Assembly: GCF_004151485.1 (NCBI RefSeq)
Contig: NZ_SBFF01000010.1
Location: forward strand, 352 to 64,351
Source of the DNA: Sphingosinicella sp. CPCC 101087
Lineage (GTDB): Bacteria > Pseudomonadota > Alphaproteobacteria > Sphingomonadales > Sphingomonadaceae
Reading direction: 5' to 3'
Length of the DNA: 64,000 nt
Part shown: piece after piece, positions 21,601 through 33,974 of the stretch
How positions within the stretch are numbered: position 1 is the stretch's first letter
Layout: every line of letters starts with the position of its first letter
Notes under the pieces: model-generated
Told to the model about the DNA's origin: nothing
Seen by the model: only the letters and a program-made list of their open reading frames with translations
Databases searched by the model: none
Translations under genes and position numbers: made by a program

Positions 21601-22509
21601 TCAGAATTTGTCGCCGCTGAGGCGCTGGCAGATCATGTCGAGCTGGTCGAGCGTCGAGTAAGCGAGGGTGACGGCGCCGCCTTTTGGCGTATGCTTGATC
21701 GTGACCTTGAGCCCGAGCAGGTCCCCGAGTTGCCGTTCGAGCGCGGCGATGTCGGCATTGGCGCCCTTGATGGGCAGCGGCCGCTGTCGGGTGGGCTTGC
21801 CATCGCGCGCAAGCTGCTCCGTCTCGCGTACCGACAGGCCGCGCCGAGCCACCTCCTCGGCGAGTACCTCAGGATCCGGCGCGGTAATCAGCGCGCGGGC
21901 ATGTCCCATCGTCAGCTCGCCGGCGCCCACCATCACCTGAATCCGAGCAGGGAGGTCGAGCAGACGGACCAGGTTGGCGACATGGCTGCGCGACTTGTGG
22001 ACGATACGGCTCAGTTCTTCCTGAGTATGGCCATATTCCTGCATCAGCCGTCGATAGCCCTGCGCTTCCTCGATCGGATTGAGATCCTCGCGCTGGATAT
22101 TCTCGATGAGCGCGATCTCGAGCGTCTCTTCCTCGCTGAAATCGCGGACGATGGCCGGAATCTCATGCAGCCGTGCCTTCTGCGCCGCGCGCCATCGACG
22201 TTCTCCAGCGACGATCTGGAAACGGTGACCGTGCGGCCGCACCAGGATCGGCTGGACGACGCCGCGCGCGGCGATCGACTCGGCGAGTTCGGCGAGCGCC
22301 TCCTCGTTGAAGATGCGGCGCGGCTGGCCCGGATGGGGTTCGATACTTGCGATCGGGATCAAGCGGACGTCGCCTCGGGGCGCGCCATCGCCGCCGACCG
22401 GGGCTTCCTGCACGGCGTCACCAAGCAGAGAGGAGAGCCCGCGGCCGAGGCCGGATGGACGCTTGCGTCCTTCGGCGGAAACCGCGCGGCGGCGTGCTTC
22501 GTCGCTCAT
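21601..22509 (-). CDS. parB: chromosome-partitioning protein ParB
   Basis: The 302-residue ParB has the N-terminal CTP-binding domain with GERRWRA at 102-108 and the preceding QPILVRP. A parS-reading HTH follows (about 140-190, HTQEELSRIVHKSRSHVANL), then a linker and a C-terminal dimer domain. It loads at parS, spreads as a CTP clamp and recruits SMC and ParA. Two parS-type sites are present 1.4 and 3.3 kb upstream of the parB start. The start overlaps the parA stop by four bases, so ParA and ParB are made together. Confidence 0.96.
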   Translation of the reverse strand: MSDEARRRAVSAEGRKRPSGLGRGLSSLLGDAVQEAPVGGDGAPRGDVRLIPIASIEPHPGQPRRIFNEEALAELAESIAARGVVQPILVRPHGHRFQIVAGERRWRAAQKARLHEIPAIVRDFSEEETLEIALIENIQREDLNPIEEAQGYRRLMQEYGHTQEELSRIVHKSRSHVANLVRLLDLPARIQVMVGAGELTMGHARALITAPDPEVLAEEVARRGLSVRETEQLARDGKPTRQRPLPIKGANADIAALERQLGDLLGLKVTIKHTPKGGAVTLAYSTLDQLDMICQRLSGDKF

Positions 22510-23288
22510 GCCGCCTCCGCCTTGCGCGGCAGCCGCGCGATCAATTCGCGCGCCAGCGCGATATAGGCTTCCGAACCGGGGCAGCGGTGGTCGTAGATCA
22601 AAGCAGGGATTCCGTGGCTCGGCGCCTCGGAGAGGCGGACATTGCGCGGGATGATTGTCTCGAAGACGGTGCTGCCCAAGCAGGCGCGGACATCCTCCGC
22701 GACCTGAGAAGACAGATTGTTGCGACGGTCATACATGGTGAGGGCGACGCCGAGGATCGAAAGCTCGGGGTTGAAGCGGGAGCGGATCCGCTCGACCGTC
22801 TGGAGAAGTTGGCTGAGCCCCTCCAGCGCGAAGAACTCGGCCTGCAGCGGCACCAAGATCGCATTGGCGGCGACGAGGGCATTGACCGTGAGGAGACCGA
22901 GCGAAGGCGGGCAGTCGATCAGGCAGACGTCCCATCGCACGTCCGATATGCTGTCGAATGCGGCATCCAGCCGGTGCGTTCTTTGTTCGAAATCAATGAG
23001 TTCTATTTCGGCGCCGGACAAGTCGACCGTTGCCGGCACGATATCGAGACGGGGGACCTTAGTCGGCACCACCGCTTCGTCGAGCGTGTTCTGGCCGGTC
23101 AGCAGCTCGTAACTCGACCGATCGCGCAAAGCATGGCCGATGCCGAGGCCGGTCGAAGCATTGCCTTGCGGGTCGAGGTCGATCAGCAGCACTCGACAGC
23201 CGGTCGCGGCGAGCGCGGTTGCGAGATTGATCGCGGTCGTCGTCTTCCCGACTCCGCCCTTCTGGTTGGCGACCGCGATTCGGATCAT
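22506..23288 (-). CDS. parA: chromosome-partitioning ATPase ParA
   Basis: The 260-residue protein is a small ParA/Soj type lacking an N-terminal HTH. The deviant Walker A KGGVGKTT is at residues 10-17, and LLIDLDPQGNAST and CLIDCPPSLGLLT give Walker A' and B. It forms the nucleoid-bound gradient that pulls ParB-parS complexes. The start MIRIAVANQ is the family norm; a longer in-frame reading enters rsmG. It overlaps rsmG upstream and parB downstream, each by four bases (rsmG-parA-parB coupled). Confidence 0.97.
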   Translation of the reverse strand: MIRIAVANQKGGVGKTTTAINLATALAATGCRVLLIDLDPQGNASTGLGIGHALRDRSSYELLTGQNTLDEAVVPTKVPRLDIVPATVDLSGAEIELIDFEQRTHRLDAAFDSISDVRWDVCLIDCPPSLGLLTVNALVAANAILVPLQAEFFALEGLSQLLQTVERIRSRFNPELSILGVALTMYDRRNNLSSQVAEDVRACLGSTVFETIIPRNVRLSEAPSHGIPALIYDHRCPGSEAYIALARELIARLPRKAEAA

Positions 23289-23920
23289 CTTTCCATCCTC
23301 TTGGCCTTTCGGCTTACCCCCTCGGCGACGATGATGGCGGATTCGGCGTCGGTGAAGCTCGGCTCGAGATGGAAACCACCCTGCCACGAAGGATCGAGCG
23401 CTTCCAGTTCGGACTGCGCATTTCGTCCCTTTGGCAGGATCCAGACCGTCTTTGCTGTGGAAAAGCGTGCGCCAAGGCCGAGCAGGCGGGGCAGCGCCGC
23501 GAAAGCGCGGGCGCTGATCACGTCGAAAGAACGGGGAGGAACGCGCTCGACGCGGGCGCCCACGACTTCCACGTCCACCCCGAGACACTCTGCGGCCCGA
23601 ATGAGGAATTCGACGCGAAGCCGCCTTTCCTCGACGAGCGTGACGGGGCCCCGATGAAGCAAAGCGACGATGAGCCCGGGGAAGCCGGCGCCGCTGCCGA
23701 GGTCGACCCAGCTCGCTTCCGTCGCCGGCGCGAAGCGGAGGAGCTGCGCCGAGTCGACGATGTGACGGTGCCACAGATGATCGAGGCTGGCGGCCGAGAC
23801 GAGGTTTTGGCGCGCATTCTCTTCCCGGAGCAGACGGGCGTAGGCATCGAGCCGGTCCAATGTTTCACGTGAAACATCGTATCGGACAGCGAGCCAAGCC
23901 CGTGCCTCCTCCTCGTTCAT
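23285..23920 (-). CDS. rsmG: 16S rRNA (guanine527-N7)-methyltransferase RsmG
   Basis: The 211-residue methyltransferase has the SAM-binding loop VDLGSGAGFPGL at about residues 72-83 and the RsmG opening with NLVSAASLDHLWHRHIVDS. It methylates G527 of 16S rRNA; loss gives low-level streptomycin resistance in other bacteria. Codons 15-21 (VSRETL) are formed by a perfect parS palindrome, so this coding sequence doubles as a centromere site. Its ATG overlaps the mnmG stop by one base (TGATG). Confidence 0.95.
   Translation of the reverse strand: MNEEEARAWLAVRYDVSRETLDRLDAYARLLREENARQNLVSAASLDHLWHRHIVDSAQLLRFAPATEASWVDLGSGAGFPGLIVALLHRGPVTLVEERRLRVEFLIRAAECLGVDVEVVGARVERVPPRSFDVISARAFAALPRLLGLGARFSTAKTVWILPKGRNAQSELEALDPSWQGGFHLEPSFTDAESAIIVAEGVSRKAKRMER
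23861..23876. promoter_or_regulatory. parS: parS site (perfect 16-bp palindrome)
   Basis: TGTTTCACGTGAAACA is identical to the consensus bacterial parS bound by ParB. It lies inside the 5' part of rsmG and is perfectly palindromic. The parAB genes are adjacent, and the proposed origin is about 8.4 kb away. This is a primary ParB loading site by established knowledge of the motif. Confidence 0.95.
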
Positions 23921-25809
23921 CAGGCGGCCTTGCGACGCCGGGCGTGGACGAGAATAGCGGCGAGGGCGGCAGGCGTGATGCCGCGTATTCTTCCAGCGGC
24001 GCCCAGCGTCGACGGCCGGGCTGTCGTGAGCCGTTCGACCATCTCGCGCGAAAGGCCAGGGATCGAGCCGAAGTCGAGTTCGGCCGGGATCTTCACCGCC
24101 TCGTCGGCGCGTAGCCGGGCGATCTCCCCTTCTTGTCGCGCAAGATATGGCGCGTAGACATGATCCTGGACTGCCTCTTCGAGCCTCGCCGGGTCGACGT
24201 CTGCCAGAGCAGGGCACAGCCGGATCAAAGCGAGCGAGCCGAGCTCAGGATAGCGAAGCCAGTCGGTCAGGGGCCGGGCGGCACCGTCACCGCGGACCAC
24301 GACGCCGGCCGCGTTCAACTCCCTGGCCGTGAACCGCTGCTCGAGCTCGGCTTCGATCTTCGCCCGGGCAGAACGGCCCGCTTCGAAATGGCGGCGTCGC
24401 TCGGGCGAGACGCAGTTCAAAGCGATGGCGTGAGGCGTCAGGCGTGCCTCGGCATTGTCGGCCCGCAGCCTCAGCCGATACTCCGCGCGGGCGGTCAGCA
24501 TCCGATAGGGTTCGGTGACACCCTGGAGGACCAGATCGTCCACCATGACTCCGATATAGGAGTCGCTGCGGTCGAACAGCACCGGGGCGGCGGCGCCGAC
24601 CCAGGCGGCTGCGTTGAGGCCAGCAACAAGCCCCTGCGCCGCCGCCTCCTCATAGCCGGTCGTCCCGTTGATCTGCCCCGCAAGATAAAGGCCATCGACG
24701 TCGCGGACGCCAAGGGTCGGCTCGAGGATGCGCGGATCGACATGGTCATATTCGACCGCATAGCCGGGCTGGGCGATCTCGGCGCGCTCCAGGCCGGCCA
24801 TGGTGCGGATCATGGCGAGCTGAACCTCCTCGGGCAGGGACGTCGAGATTCCGTTGGGATAGACGAGAGGATCGTCGAGGCCTTCCGGCTCGAGAAAGAT
24901 CTGGTGCCCGTCGCGATCGGCGAAACGATGGACCTTGTCCTCGATCGACGGGCAATAGCGCGGCCCGATCCCTTCTATCTCGCCGGCGAAGAGAGGCGAC
25001 CTGTCGAGATTGACGCGGATGATTTCGTGGGTCCGCGCATTGGTCCGGGTGATGGCGCAGAAGAGCTGCGGCGCGACGCGGCCCGGGCCCATCGACGACA
25101 TGGTCCAGCGGTCCGCGTCCGACTCCTGGCGCTCGAGAGCGGCCCAGTCGACCGTCCTTCCGTCCAGCCGCGGAGGCGTACCGGTCTTGAGGCGGGCGAG
25201 GGGGAGGCCAAGCGCGCGAAGCTGGCCGGCCAAGGCCGTCGCGGCCCGCTCGCCGACCCGCCCGCCGGCGCAGCTCGACAGGCCGAAATGAAGCTTGCCG
25301 CCAAGGAAGGTGCCGGTGGCGAGAATCACCGCCTTTGCCTTGAGTTCGCGCCCATCCGCGAGGGTCACGCCCGTGACGCGCCGTGCGTCGAGGCACAGGG
25401 CCGCCGCTTCGCCTTCCACGATGTAGAGACCGGCCTGGCCACCGACCAATCGATGAATGGCGTCTTTGTAGCGCCGCCGATCGGCCTGGATGCGGGGACC
25501 GCGCACGGCGGCGCCTTTGCTGGCATTGAGCATCCGGTAATGGATCGCGGCCTCATCCGAGGCGCGGGCGATCAGTCCATCGAAAGCGTCGACTTCACGA
25601 ATGAGATGGCCCTTGCCAAGTCCCCCCATCGCCGGATTGCACGACATGGTTCCGATCTGGTCGCGGCTGAAGCTGAGCAAGGCCGTCGCCGCACCCAGGC
25701 GCGCCGCGGCGGCCGCCGCTTCGGTGCCGGCATGGCCGCCGCCGACCACGATGATGTCGAAGCTGGATCGCACGGGAAGCGATCTAGGCACTTGTTTCAC
25801 GTGGAACAA
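23920..25809 (-). CDS. mnmG: tRNA uridine 5-carboxymethylaminomethyl modification enzyme MnmG
   Basis: The 629-residue FAD protein (GidA) works with MnmE to modify U34 in tRNA wobble positions. The FAD motif GGGHAG is at residues 23-28. The family signatures [18 protein letters not shown] and [11 protein letters not shown] follow, with the C-terminal helical MnmE-binding domain at the end. With the ATG at 25809 the N-terminus is MFHVKQ, encoded by a parS-like palindrome. In-frame GTG codons at residues 7 and 13 are possible real starts. It follows mnmE after 61 bases, the usual pairing. Confidence 0.95.
25793..25808. promoter_or_regulatory. parS: second parS-type site, one mismatch to the palindrome
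   Basis: TGTTTCACGTGGAACA differs from perfect parS symmetry at one position. It lies over the first codons of mnmG in the mnmE-mnmG gap, 1.9 kb from the perfect site. A parS variant near this gene pair is known from other alphaproteobacteria. It is probably a functional ParB site of somewhat lower affinity. Confidence 0.85.
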
Positions 25810-30659: not shown

Positions 30660-31115
30660 TCAGAACGGTCGGACGATCACCAGGACGACGATCAACACGA
30701 CCGCAATCCCCGGAATCTCATTCATCATCCGGAGCGTCCGCCCGCTGATCGGCCGGGCGCCCGAAGCCAGCTTGCGGCCATAGCCAACCATCCAGCCGTG
30801 ATAGCCGGACAGTGCGAGGACCAGAGCGAACTTGGCGTGGAACCAGCCTTCGCTCCAGGCCCCGGTCACCCAAGCCAGGCTCAGGCCAAACACCCAGACC
30901 AGGAGGATCGCCGGCGTGATGATGATATTGCGCAGCTTCCGCTCACGGTCGATCCACTTCTGCTCTTCGTCGGATCCGGGGGCCGCCTCCTGATGATAGA
31001 CGTAGAAGCGAGGAAGCATGAACAGGCCCGCAATCCAGAAGATCACGAAGATGACGTGGCCAGCCTTCAGCCATGCGTAGGTCAAGGTCAGCGCCGCTCC
31101 CAGTTCACCGATCAC
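30660..31115 (-). CDS. hemJ: HemJ-type protoporphyrinogen IX oxidase
   Basis: The 151-residue protein has four membrane segments and the HemJ/CopD-like family features: an N-terminal YAWLKAGHVIFVIFWIAGLF with conserved His in the first helix, RKLRNIIITPAILLVW, and FHAKFALVLALSGYHG. HemJ oxidises protoporphyrinogen IX in heme synthesis and is the common form in alphaproteobacteria. The start overlaps the hemE stop by four bases, so the two heme genes are coupled. That supports HemJ rather than a copper-resistance role. Confidence 0.9.
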   Translation of the reverse strand: MIGELGAALTLTYAWLKAGHVIFVIFWIAGLFMLPRFYVYHQEAAPGSDEEQKWIDRERKLRNIIITPAILLVWVFGLSLAWVTGAWSEGWFHAKFALVLALSGYHGWMVGYGRKLASGARPISGRTLRMMNEIPGIAVVLIVVLVIVRPF

Positions 31116-32140
31116 GCCTGGCGCACCAGAGCGACGAGCCGTTCGACATGGGCGATCGGCGTTTCTTTGATAATTCCGTGGCCGAGATTGAAGATATGCG
31201 GCCTCCCCCGGAGCCTAGATAGGATGCGCTCCACCGCGCTTTCAAGCGCTTCGCCGCCGGCAAGCAGGGCAAAAGGATCCAGATTGCCCTGGACAGGCAG
31301 ATCATCCGGAAGATCCGCCACCGCTACGGCCGGATCGACGGTCTCGTCCAGGCCGATCGCCCCGACCTGGGTCTCGCGCGCATAAGCCGCGAGCTTGCCG
31401 CCGGCGCCCTTGGGAAAGCCGATCACCGGCACGCCCGGGTGCCGCGCCTTCAGGGCCGCGACGATCCGCGCCGTCGGCGCGATCACCCAGCGCTCGAACT
31501 GCGCCGGCGCAAGGCTCCCGGACCAGCTGTCGAACAATTGCACTGCGTCGACGCCGGCTGTGATCTGGCCGGAAAGATAGTCGATCGTCATGTCGGCAAT
31601 CGCGTCGATTATCTCGCCGAAGGCCGTGGGATCTCGATAGGCGTGAAGTCGGGCCTCCGCCTGCTCGCGGCTTCCCTGGCCAGCGACCATGTAGGTCGCA
31701 ACCGTCCAGGGGCTGCCCGCAAAGCCCAGAAAAGTGGTTTGCGTCGGCAATCGGGCAGCCACTTTCTCCACAGTATCGTAAATCGGCTGCAGCCGCGCCT
31801 CCACGCGCTCCAGCGAAGCGAGCGCGGCATCGACCAGACGCGGCGAAAGACGCGGACCTTCGCCGGCTTCGAAGGCCAAGTCCTGGCCGAGCGCGTGCGG
31901 CACGATCAATATGTCGGAAAACAGGATCGCACCGTCGAAGCCGAACCGGCGGATCGGCTGAAGCGTGATTTCGGCTGCGGCTTCACTGTCGAAGACAAGT
32001 TCGAGGAATCCGCCCTTCGCCTCGCGCAAAGCCCTGTACTCGGGCAGGTACCGTCCGGCCTGGCGCATCAGCCAGAGCGGAATAATGTCCGTTTTTCCGC
32101 CACTTAATACGGACAGCAAGGGCTTGTTCTGCACGGGCAT
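31112..32140 (-). CDS. hemE: uroporphyrinogen decarboxylase
   Basis: The 342-residue enzyme decarboxylates uroporphyrinogen III to coproporphyrinogen III. The first signature PLWLMRQAGRYLPEY lies near residue 21 and the second region FLGFAGSPWTVATYMV follows. The length is normal. It is the first gene left of the gene-free segment taken as the chromosomal origin. Its promoter must lie in that segment, so initiation and hemE transcription could influence each other, as described for Caulobacter. Confidence 0.97.
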   Translation of the reverse strand: MPVQNKPLLSVLSGGKTDIIPLWLMRQAGRYLPEYRALREAKGGFLELVFDSEAAAEITLQPIRRFGFDGAILFSDILIVPHALGQDLAFEAGEGPRLSPRLVDAALASLERVEARLQPIYDTVEKVAARLPTQTTFLGFAGSPWTVATYMVAGQGSREQAEARLHAYRDPTAFGEIIDAIADMTIDYLSGQITAGVDAVQLFDSWSGSLAPAQFERWVIAPTARIVAALKARHPGVPVIGFPKGAGGKLAAYARETQVGAIGLDETVDPAVAVADLPDDLPVQGNLDPFALLAGGEALESAVERILSRLRGRPHIFNLGHGIIKETPIAHVERLVALVRQA

Positions 32141-32160
32141 GAGAGCCGGTCGGTCTCCCT

Positions 32161-32208
32161 CCTCTTATCTTCTATAGGTTAGAATCTAAGAGTCTGATGA
32201 GATTAGTA
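32161..32208. other. AT-rich patch, candidate DNA-unwinding element
   Basis: It is the most AT-rich run I noticed in the window. It contains TTAGAATCTAA (32179-32189), a palindrome of two 5-base arms around one base, and CTCTTA/TAAGAG arms at 32162-32167 and 32187-32192. It lies at the hemE side of the candidate origin, about 100-270 bp from the DnaA-like boxes, a plausible arrangement for a duplex-unwinding element. Confidence 0.5.
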
Positions 32209-32308
32209 GGGGGCGGAGAAGCGGGGTTTATGGCTTCGCACATCTTTTGCCAACAGCTTGACTCGCCTGAACCGGCGGCAATCCGGGGAGTCGCTCTTGC
32301 GATCCCCG

Positions 32309-32317
32309 CGATCCACA
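32309..32317 (+). promoter_or_regulatory. DnaA-box-like 9-mer CGATCCACA
   Basis: It matches 7 of 9 positions of the TTATCCACA consensus and differs at one base from the TGATCCACA G-box type of the Caulobacter origin. Its exact inverted copy lies 35 bases downstream. Confidence 0.55.
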
Positions 32318-32352
32318 GGCTGGGGGCGGAATCCAGGCACTGTTCGTCAAGC

Positions 32353-32361
32353 TGTGGATCG
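32353..32361 (-). promoter_or_regulatory. inverted DnaA-box-like 9-mer CGATCCACA
   Basis: TGTGGATCG on the plus strand is the reverse complement of the box at 32309. The identity extends to a tenth base (CGATCCACAG). Facing copies in a gene-free segment between hemE and ppsR support a DnaA-binding role. Confidence 0.55.
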
Positions 32362-32432
32362 GTTCGGAGGATGCGGGGACTAAACCCGTCCTTGATGTTG
32401 TGCGCAGGCTTCCGCTAGCGATTTCCCCATGG

Positions 32433-32441
32433 TTTTCCACA
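32433..32441 (+). promoter_or_regulatory. DnaA-box-like 9-mer TTTTCCACA
   Basis: It matches 8 of 9 positions of TTATCCACA. It lies 38 bases before the ppsR start, at the right end of the candidate origin, so binding here could also affect ppsR transcription. Confidence 0.55.
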
Positions 32442-32478
32442 GGCCCAATCCTCCGGCCGCGGCCGGCTTCGAAGCTGC

Positions 32479-33336
32479 ATGGACACAAGCCGCATGGACA
32501 AGGGTATCGCGAGGGTGAAGCAGCTTCACCTCCACCTCCTCTCGGATTCGACCGGCGAGACGCTCGACATGCTCGCCAAGGCCTGCCTCGCCCAGTTCGA
32601 CAATGTCGAGGCGATCCCGCATCTCTGGCCGATGGTACGGTCCGAGGGACATCTCGACCGGGTTCTCGACGATGTCGCACGGCGGCCCGGCCTGGTCCTC
32701 TACACCGTCGTCAATCCAACCATCAGGCGGGAACTGGAGCAGAAATGCCGCCGCCGCTCCATTCACGCGGTGTCGGTGCTCGATCCGGTGATCGACGCGC
32801 TTGCGGCGGTCAGCGGCGAGCAGGCCAAGGGCCGTTCGGGCCGCCAGCACGTGCTGGACGCTGCCTATTTCGCGCGGGTGGACGCCATTCAGTTCACCAT
32901 CGCCCACGACGATGGGGTCGGCCCGGAAAACTGGGAGGAAGCCGACATCATCCTGGCGGGCGTGTCACGCACGTCCAAGACGCCGACCAGCATCTATCTC
33001 GCCAATCGCGGCTACAAGGTCGCCAACGTGCCGCTGGTCCCGCAATCGCCTCCGCCCGATGCCTTGTTCCAGGTGAAGCATCCGCTCGTCGTCGGGCTTA
33101 CCACCAATCCGGAGAGGCTGGTCCAGATCCGGCGCAATCGACTGCTCTCGCTGAACCAGGCGCCCGAGACCGACTATGTGGACATCGAGGCAGTCAATGC
33201 GGAGCTCGCCTTCGCGCGGCGCCTCTTCGCCGACAATGGATGGCCGGTCATCGATGTCACTCGCCGTTCGATCGAGGAATCGGCGCTGGCGATTGTCAAA
33301 CTCTATAGCGAACGGCTGGAGCAGGCAGCGGAGTGA
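32479..33336 (+). CDS. ppsR: pyruvate, phosphate dikinase/PEP synthase regulatory kinase-phosphorylase (DUF299)
   Basis: With the ATG at 32479 the protein has 285 residues; an ATG at 32494 is an equally possible start. The family's nucleotide loop GVSRTSKTPTS is at 161-171, and LHLHLLSDSTGETL near residue 16 is the usual opening. It is a bifunctional ADP-dependent kinase and Pi-dependent pyrophosphorylase acting on a Thr of PPDK or PEP synthase; the target is not in this window. It is the first gene right of the candidate origin. The stop overlaps the maf start (GTGA). Confidence 0.95.
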   Translation: MDTSRMDKGIARVKQLHLHLLSDSTGETLDMLAKACLAQFDNVEAIPHLWPMVRSEGHLDRVLDDVARRPGLVLYTVVNPTIRRELEQKCRRRSIHAVSVLDPVIDALAAVSGEQAKGRSGRQHVLDAAYFARVDAIQFTIAHDDGVGPENWEEADIILAGVSRTSKTPTSIYLANRGYKVANVPLVPQSPPPDALFQVKHPLVVGLTTNPERLVQIRRNRLLSLNQAPETDYVDIEAVNAELAFARRLFADNGWPVIDVTRRSIEESALAIVKLYSERLEQAAE

Positions 33337-33974
33337 ATGCCCTGTCACCGCCTGGCGCCGGCCTTCCGATACAGCCCAGGACAGGGCTGCTGCTGGCTTC
33401 CCGGAGCGAGGCCAGGCACCGGATGCTCCAGGCCGCCGGCGTCGCCTTCGAAGCCGCCGACGCCGAACTCGACGAGTCGGAGGCGAAGGTCGGCCTCGTC
33501 GCGGCGGGATTCGAGCCGCGCGACCTGGCCGAGATGCTCGCCGAGATGAAAGCGCGCAGCGTGCGGGCCCCGGGCGATGCGCTCATCCTCGGCGCGGATC
33601 AGGTTCTCGAACAGGACGACGGCTCCATCCTGAGCAAGCCCGCCTCGCGTGAGGACGCGCTGGCGCAGCTCCGATCTCTCTCCGGCCGGACTCATTTCCT
33701 CCATTCCGCGGCGGCGATCGTCGAGCGGGGGGAGCGGGTCTGGGGACGTACCGAAACCGTGGCGCTTCGTGTCCGCCCGCTGAGCGATTCCTATCTCGAG
33801 GATTATCTCGACCAGGAATATGAGCAGATCCGCTTCTGCGTCGGCGGCTATCGAATCGAAGGTCCGGGAATCCAGCTTTTCGATGAGATAGACGGAAGCC
33901 ATTTCGCCATCCTGGGTCTACCGATGCTGCCTTTGCTCGCCTTCCTGCGCGAGCGTCGGATCCTTCCCCGCTGA
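33333..33974 (+). CDS. maf: Maf-family nucleotide pyrophosphatase
   Basis: The 213-residue protein begins at GTG 33333, overlapping the ppsR stop. It has LLLASRSEARHRML (the Maf motif usually LASxSPRR), the ADQVLEQDD active-site region and a central VGGYRIEGPGIQLF. Maf enzymes hydrolyse non-canonical or methylated nucleoside triphosphates. The motif variation (EARHRML in place of PRRxELL) suggests the YceF-like subgroup with m7GTP preference, but this is tentative. Its stop overlaps the coaE ATG (TGATG). Confidence 0.88.
   Translation: MNALSPPGAGLPIQPRTGLLLASRSEARHRMLQAAGVAFEAADAELDESEAKVGLVAAGFEPRDLAEMLAEMKARSVRAPGDALILGADQVLEQDDGSILSKPASREDALAQLRSLSGRTHFLHSAAAIVERGERVWGRTETVALRVRPLSDSYLEDYLDQEYEQIRFCVGGYRIEGPGIQLFDEIDGSHFAILGLPMLPLLAFLRERRILPR

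Follow-up and report, generated by a model that had tools for sequence, protein, structure and literature searches.

As of 2007, the only experimentally identified origin of replication in the Alphaproteobacteria was Cori of Caulobacter crescentus, which occupies the gap between hemE and a gene of the COG1806 family (PMC1914354). Cori is listed there with a length of 404 bp, and its described parts include an AT-rich patch, G-boxes (TGATCCACA), W-boxes (consensus TCCCCA) and an IHF site (PMC1914354, PMC4285127).

For the sphingomonads, no experimentally mapped origin was found among the literature matches listed. An oriC near hemE, with conserved boxes and a DNA unwinding element (DUE), is predicted for most Sphingomonadaceae in DoriC (PMC4741004), and the same source describes for Sphingopyxis granuli TFA a predicted origin near hemE that combines a putative DUE with conserved DnaA boxes. 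The predicted origin of Novosphingobium PP1Y also lies near hemE and has three DnaA boxes, with dnaA reported close to it (PMC4059872). In the Sphingomonadales at large, dnaA is not conserved near ori (PMC8116508).

The hemE/ppsR gap and its place among known origins

The stretch analysed here, referred to as the window, covers 64,000 nucleotides (G000:C2:352-64351) of a draft genome of 4.70 Mb in 44 contigs. Contig C2 is 258 kb long, with 32 kb of it to the left of the gap between hemE and ppsR. By ppsR, the closest named relatives are labelled Sphingosinicella, with 92% identity to S. terrae among the records listed.

The gap (32141-32478) is, with a high degree of confidence, the DnaA-dependent origin (oriC) of the main chromosome. 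The initial annotation had read it as a functional oriC, and this reading is supported by the gene context, the cluster of boxes, the AT-rich patch, the nearby parS sites and parAB genes, conservation in the family and in the class, and the GC skew of relatives, which together point to an oriC of the Caulobacter type. Since a hemE-linked oriC has already been predicted for most Sphingomonadaceae (PMC4741004), both the location and the type are known; the site is a well-supported addition to the hemE-linked class at a location already in print. An origin here fixes the map of the draft genome and extends the alphaproteobacterial hemE-oriC rule to a Sphingosinicella-like genome.

The gap is a gene-free segment of 338 bp, shorter than Cori, and was recovered letter for letter at the coordinates first proposed for it. 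Its GC content of 58.9%, against 65.9% for contig C2, gives it an AT content above average. It is bounded by hemE, encoding uroporphyrinogen decarboxylase (31112-32140, minus strand; PF01208, E 5.3e-112), with its start codon at complement(32138-32140), and by the divergent ppsR, encoding a DUF299/COG1806 kinase-pyrophosphorylase (32479-33336, plus strand; PF03618, E 1.2e-94). Pfam assignments also agree with the flanking gene identities given earlier: on the hemE side URO-D (for hemE itself), UPF0093 (for hemJ) and Rho, and on the other side Kinase-PPPase (for ppsR), Maf, CoaE and an RNase_T exonuclease (dnaQ-like). The listed ATG of ppsR is at 32479 and a further ATG is found at 32494; because the alignments of relatives mostly begin at residue 10-17, the real start may lie a little downstream, for example at the latter. 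No Rfam family matched 31000-33500 at E values of 0.1 or below. Inside the gap, the plus strand carries two terminator-like stem-loops, at 32221-32239 and 32373-32389 (2 found vs 0.6 expected).

Unlike Cori, the gap has no CtrA sites, either as TTAA-N7-TTAA or as the looser TTWW-N7-TTWW. Such sites are treated here as a Caulobacter trait that does not define a Cori-type oriC. One source states that CtrA sites are not seen in other origins (PMC4468827), at odds with their prediction in most Wolbachia origins (PMC1914354). In Sphingomonas melonis, ctrA can reportedly be lost without a negative effect on growth or viability (PMC8116508).

The gene arrangement is highly conserved. A scan for relatives of ppsR yielded the best 80 named loci, nearly all labelled sphingomonads; the exceptions are one Brevundimonas and a few whose label goes no further than Alphaproteobacteria or Proteobacteria. 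hemE and ppsR are divergent in all 79 of these that carry both genes; the remaining locus is on a 6-kb contig with no hemE on it. The 79 gaps, together with that of the window, make up the set of 80 gaps used below, and 77 of them were aligned, three gaps longer than 410 bp being omitted. A class-wide draw of 76 genomes included 51 with ppsR, from which the best 30 loci were fetched, two of them from the window's own family. hemE adjoins ppsR in divergent orientation in 29 of the 30.

DnaA boxes, W-boxes and the AT-rich patch

Three DnaA boxes are present in the gap. Box 1 reads CGATCCACA (32309-32317, plus strand), box 2 is the same 9-mer inverted (32353-32361, minus strand; TGTGGATCG on the plus strand), and box 3 reads TTTTCCACA (32433-32441, plus strand); the latter two are identified from their letters and the 77-gap alignment. 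The inverted 9-mers and the third one had been pointed out in the initial annotation, with all letters and positions correct. The flanking genes are those of the Caulobacter origin, and CGATCCACA differs by one base from the Caulobacter G-box (PMC4285127). The strict DnaA box TTATNCACA, the consensus used in PMC1914354, has no match in the gap.

A DnaA-box scan found three NNNTCCACA inside the gap. Contig C2 has 72 in all, or 0.09 expected per 338 bp, and three within 338 bp are found in the hemE/ppsR gap only. TGTGGATCG occurs twice in the window, both times inside the gap; since 13 of 100 shuffled versions of the same sequence also reach two, this single-site count alone is weak evidence. 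The inverted pair CGATCCACA-N20-50-TGTGGATCG was sought genome-wide and has one occurrence in the entire 4.70 Mb. Looser pairs of ATCCACA, which has 328 sites genome-wide, are not unique to the gap. Among the places listed in a check of the first 100 of these, a second inverted pair was seen at C1:669230-669275 and dismissed, as it falls within an open frame of 478 codons.

Clustering of the boxes is a shared feature of the relatives. At least two NNNTCCACA are found in 70 of the 80 gaps; the numbers of gaps with zero to five sites are 2, 8, 19, 36, 11 and 4, respectively. ATCCACAG is present in 62/80 gaps and in 3/313 flanking control segments of the same length, and TATCCACAG in 45/80 gaps and 0/313 controls. 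At the position of box 1, 32 of the 48 gaps having a box there carry TTATCCACA or CTATCCACA. The spacing is regular: in the 50 gaps that have a box 1, it is most often accompanied by an inverted box, 42-44 bp away in 38 gaps and 12 bp away in 18, and by a direct box 123-124 bp away in 22. Outside the family, 23 of 27 gaps have at least one NNNTCCACA and four have none.

The boxes are accompanied by W-box-like sequences. A TCCCCG (32303-32308, plus strand) stands directly before box 1, in alignment columns with T73 C61 C75 C64 C69 of 77, and a TCCCCA (32424-32429, plus strand) is identical to the Caulobacter W-box consensus (PMC4285127). TCCCC, the core of that W-box, precedes box 1 and, more weakly, box 3 in the 77-gap alignment. 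Counted on either strand, it occurs four times in the gap vs 0.55 expected on C2, which is high, not unique.

The AT-rich patch, a probable DUE, lies at 32165-32204 and is the 40-mer of lowest GC in the gap (30%). The fraction of C2 40-mers with equal or lower GC is 0.0000 to four decimal places, so that the patch noticed at the outset is indeed among the most AT-rich 40-bp stretches of the contig. An AT-rich block is also present in the alignment of the relatives' gaps. At its hemE-distal end, a TAGTAG with a GC-rich run (32196-32224) may represent a DnaA-trio or degenerate weak box area. The relatives' columns here mostly read TGTTG or TAGTAG, followed by GTGGATA, and the box letters of the window itself are degenerate. 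Read by hand, the putative trios are 3'-GAT GAT TAG beside GGGGGCGG. The unwinding module known as BUS, made of a DnaA box and DnaA-trios, is defined by three or more NAN trios lying no farther than 16 bp from the box (PMC8287927). Two candidate GAT-type trios (TAGTAG, plus strand) by a GC-rich run and the AT patch are reminiscent of the Bacillus-type BUS, whereas the box next to them has degenerate letters in the window, and the trios are irregular in relatives.

Partition sites and replication polarity

The genome has only two places that match parS with at most two mismatches, and both are beside parAB. The first (TGTTTCACGTGAAACA; 23861-23876) is 8.4 kb and the second (25793-25808, one mismatch) 6.5 kb to the left of box 1. 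parB (21601-22509, minus strand) has ParB_N, HTH_ParB and ParB_C domains, and the gene for ParA starts within an open frame listed as 22506-23774 (minus strand; AAA_31, E 7.4e-60, residues 166-340). Both parS places fall within coding sequence, one inside rsmG and the other at the very beginning of mnmG, where the encoded peptide is MFHVKQ. In ten further relatives, parS was found 6-11 kb away on the hemE side in nine and was not found in one. Two of these genomes also had weaker, more distant matches; a reversed control pattern with two mismatches gave 1-3 matches in 4 of the 10 genomes, which is the background of the search.

The GC skew of contig C2 is near zero throughout, and the 32 kb to the left of the site are slightly positive, contrary to expectation. 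Because this skew is flat and so little of the contig lies to the left, relatives with long contigs were sampled instead, in 20-kb stretches with one-sided rank tests and uncorrected p values. Six of the ten relatives were sampled in this way, and mean skew rises from left to right of the site in all six, with p < 0.05 in three. The left/right means were -0.020/+0.030 in G003 (20 samples, p 0.0005), and, with ten samples each, -0.009/+0.028 in G008 (p 0.0095), -0.043/+0.044 in G007 (p 0.033), -0.021/-0.006 in G004 (p 0.086, the right side still slightly negative), -0.009/+0.027 in G009 (p 0.086) and -0.010/+0.014 in G001 (p 0.13), whose named genus is also that of the closest relative. The minimum of the sampled cumulative skew adjoins the site in G003, G007, G008 and G009. 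For G004, two samples tie, one beside the site and another 0.4 Mb from it, and the minimum of G001 is near 0.5 Mb, 0.4 Mb away from the site at 0.894 Mb.

A further relative, G099, consists of one 4.54-Mb contig for a genome listed at 4.5 Mb and is apparently a complete chromosome. Its skew samples are positive in six of six at 0.10-1.25 Mb, negative in seven of seven at 1.48-2.86 Mb and of mixed sign in seven at 3.09-4.26 Mb. The switch at 1.27-1.48 Mb has its antipode at 3.54-3.75 Mb. The hemE/ppsR element is at 3.569 Mb, which places the site opposite the terminus as defined by skew. This genome has its two parS matches at 3.560 and 3.562 Mb.

Strand-biased oligomers of 6-8 nucleotides, trained on G003, G004, G007, G008 and G009, were also tried as a polarity test on G099, G001 and C2, and were set aside because they gave a mixed picture, with no switch on C2. 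The most strand-biased octamer in the sphingomonad training samples was GGGCAGGG (61 vs 13), which is KOPS-like, KOPS being GGGNAGGG. GGGNAGGG tells the arms apart in G099 and in G001. In G099, its plus:minus counts were 17:5 in six samples at 0.10-1.25 Mb, 5:21 in seven at 1.48-2.86 Mb and 14:9 in seven at 3.09-4.24 Mb; in G001 they were 9:17 on the left and 7:3 on the right. No switch was seen at the site on C2 (left +3/-0, right +18/-12), and the left arm of the training genome G009 runs in the wrong direction (5:3).

An origin at another place, for instance near dnaA, would agree with a contig skew that does not single out the gap, and with the location of dnaA, which, in contrast to PP1Y and in line with the lack of conservation reported for the order, is on a different contig (C12). 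However, both genomic parS places are beside the hemE/ppsR gap, and the 8 kb around dnaA contain three scattered NNNTCCACA, never two of them within 338 bp. Scans for box clusters covered C2 and stretches around dnaA on C12, on C4 and C41 and at the end of C1; outside C2, these reached at most two NNNTCCACA in 338 bp. An origin elsewhere is very improbable.

The 16-bp element and its fixed GANTC site

The most conserved stretch of the gap, ahead of the DnaA boxes, is a family-specific 16-bp element, TTGCCAACAGCTTGAC (32247-32262, plus strand), with the AT-rich patch on one side and the array of boxes on the other. Its consensus in the 77-gap alignment is TTGCCAACAG(C/A)TTGAC. The middle ACA is matched in 77, 73 and 76 of the 77 gaps and TTGAC in 73, 74, 73, 74 and 73, while the other columns of the element range from 42 to 76 and the neighbouring ones drop to 23-40. 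Conservation is quoted from the alignment because a pattern search itself partly fixes the bases.

A looser pattern of the element is found in 71 of the 80 gaps. The exact element occurs in 69 of 397 genomes of the family, once in each, compared to 2 of 397 for a reversed control pattern, and it lies between hemE and ppsR in all 30 loci fetched from the 69. In the class-wide draw, the looser pattern is present in both family gaps and in 0 of the 27 gaps from other families. The exact search was used since a search of 149 genomes with two mismatches was uninformative: 134 matched, and the reversed control was similarly frequent by eye. Of 54 distances counted between the element and box 1, 46 measure 57 or 58 bp.

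The element is linked to a GANTC site, the target of CcrM-type methylation, at 32288-32292. All 71 element-bearing gaps have exactly one GANTC 35-37 bp past the element core (6, 43 and 22 gaps, respectively), whereas shuffled gaps have one inside a wider slot of 21 bp 7% of the time. These gaps span genomes of about 40 to 70% GC, and since the relatives share ancestry, the counts for element and GANTC are not independent events. The gap as a whole has five GANTC vs 1.04 expected on C2, which is high, not unique. The 13-mer cores of the element were not found in the open-access main texts searched, and the main-text passages on the origins of TFA and PP1Y (PMC4741004, PMC4059872) mention neither the element nor the fixed GANTC. 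On that coverage, the family-wide element is apparently undescribed.

The lower strand of the element, GTCAAGCTGTTGGCAA, resembles an IHF site, with one mismatch, by hand count, to the pattern WATCAN5WTR (PMC1914354). Over the 71 gaps, seven of the eight fixed positions of the pattern are matched in 25, six in 45 and five in one, so that at least two fail in 46 of the 71. As these mismatches recur, the deviation itself is conserved. An IHF-type bend is favoured because the element sits between the AT-rich patch and the boxes and because Cori has an IHF site; from its sequence, the element may be an IHF-like bending site, with the case for and against about evenly balanced. A lineage-specific factor and a GcrA/CcrM-linked promoter rank next.

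The genome encodes DnaA (domain IV reads RDHTTV), four proteins of the IHF/HU family and GcrA, and the proposed mechanism is as follows. On the ppsR side, DnaA would bind boxes 1-3 and the W-box-like sites, which are weaker. A bending protein, for which IHF is the leading candidate at roughly even chances, would bind the element midway, and the bend would fold the filament of DnaA back until it meets the AT-rich patch next to hemE. The patch would then melt and let the helicases enter, and two forks would depart, the left through hemE and the right through ppsR. The new origins would subsequently be separated by ParB, bound at parS 6.5-8.4 kb away.

Alternatively, the origin may be here while the protein that binds the element is not IHF but an initiation regulator peculiar to the lineage, which reads the methylation state of the nearby GANTC. 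The middle of the element is conserved beyond the needs of IHF, none of the 27 gaps from other families has the element, and GANTC keeps a set distance from it, as such a regulator would predict. However, GANTC also occurs elsewhere in the gap, which leaves this a tentative and rather less probable explanation than IHF. More doubtful still is the idea that the single-copy element and the GANTC 35-37 bp on form a dedicated two-part control module of oriC through which firing depends on CcrM methylation, either directly or via GcrA or IHF. If true, the module would be the alphaproteobacterial counterpart of Dam/SeqA control, in a genome whose origin is without a CtrA site. The element and its locked GANTC offer a short target for studying how replication is timed in sphingomonads when the origin carries no CtrA site.

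The same features could be those of a promoter. If the gap were only a shared promoter, DnaA and the methylation-sensing GcrA would control hemE and ppsR, with TTGAC as the -35 and GANTC as a CcrM-regulated promoter feature, and replication would start elsewhere. TTGAC hardly varies, each of its columns being matched in 73-74 of 77 gaps, the GANTC distance is fixed in 71/71 gaps and gcrA is present in the genome; in Caulobacter, GANTC near start sites has been linked to cell-cycle transcription (PMC4287350). However, there is no -10-like conservation between TTGAC and GANTC, a search of 31900-32700 for sigma-70-like promoters found none, and the skew of relatives and the location of parS mark the locus as an origin. 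A gap with promoter function only is therefore improbable, although promoter and origin roles can coexist there, and the origin reading is retained.

Nine gaps are without the element (L020, L027, L030, L031, L047, L054, L062, L069 and L079). Six of these, L020, L031, L054, L062, L069 and L079, have a minus-strand DnaA box 40-60 bp from hemE, possibly an alternative layout.
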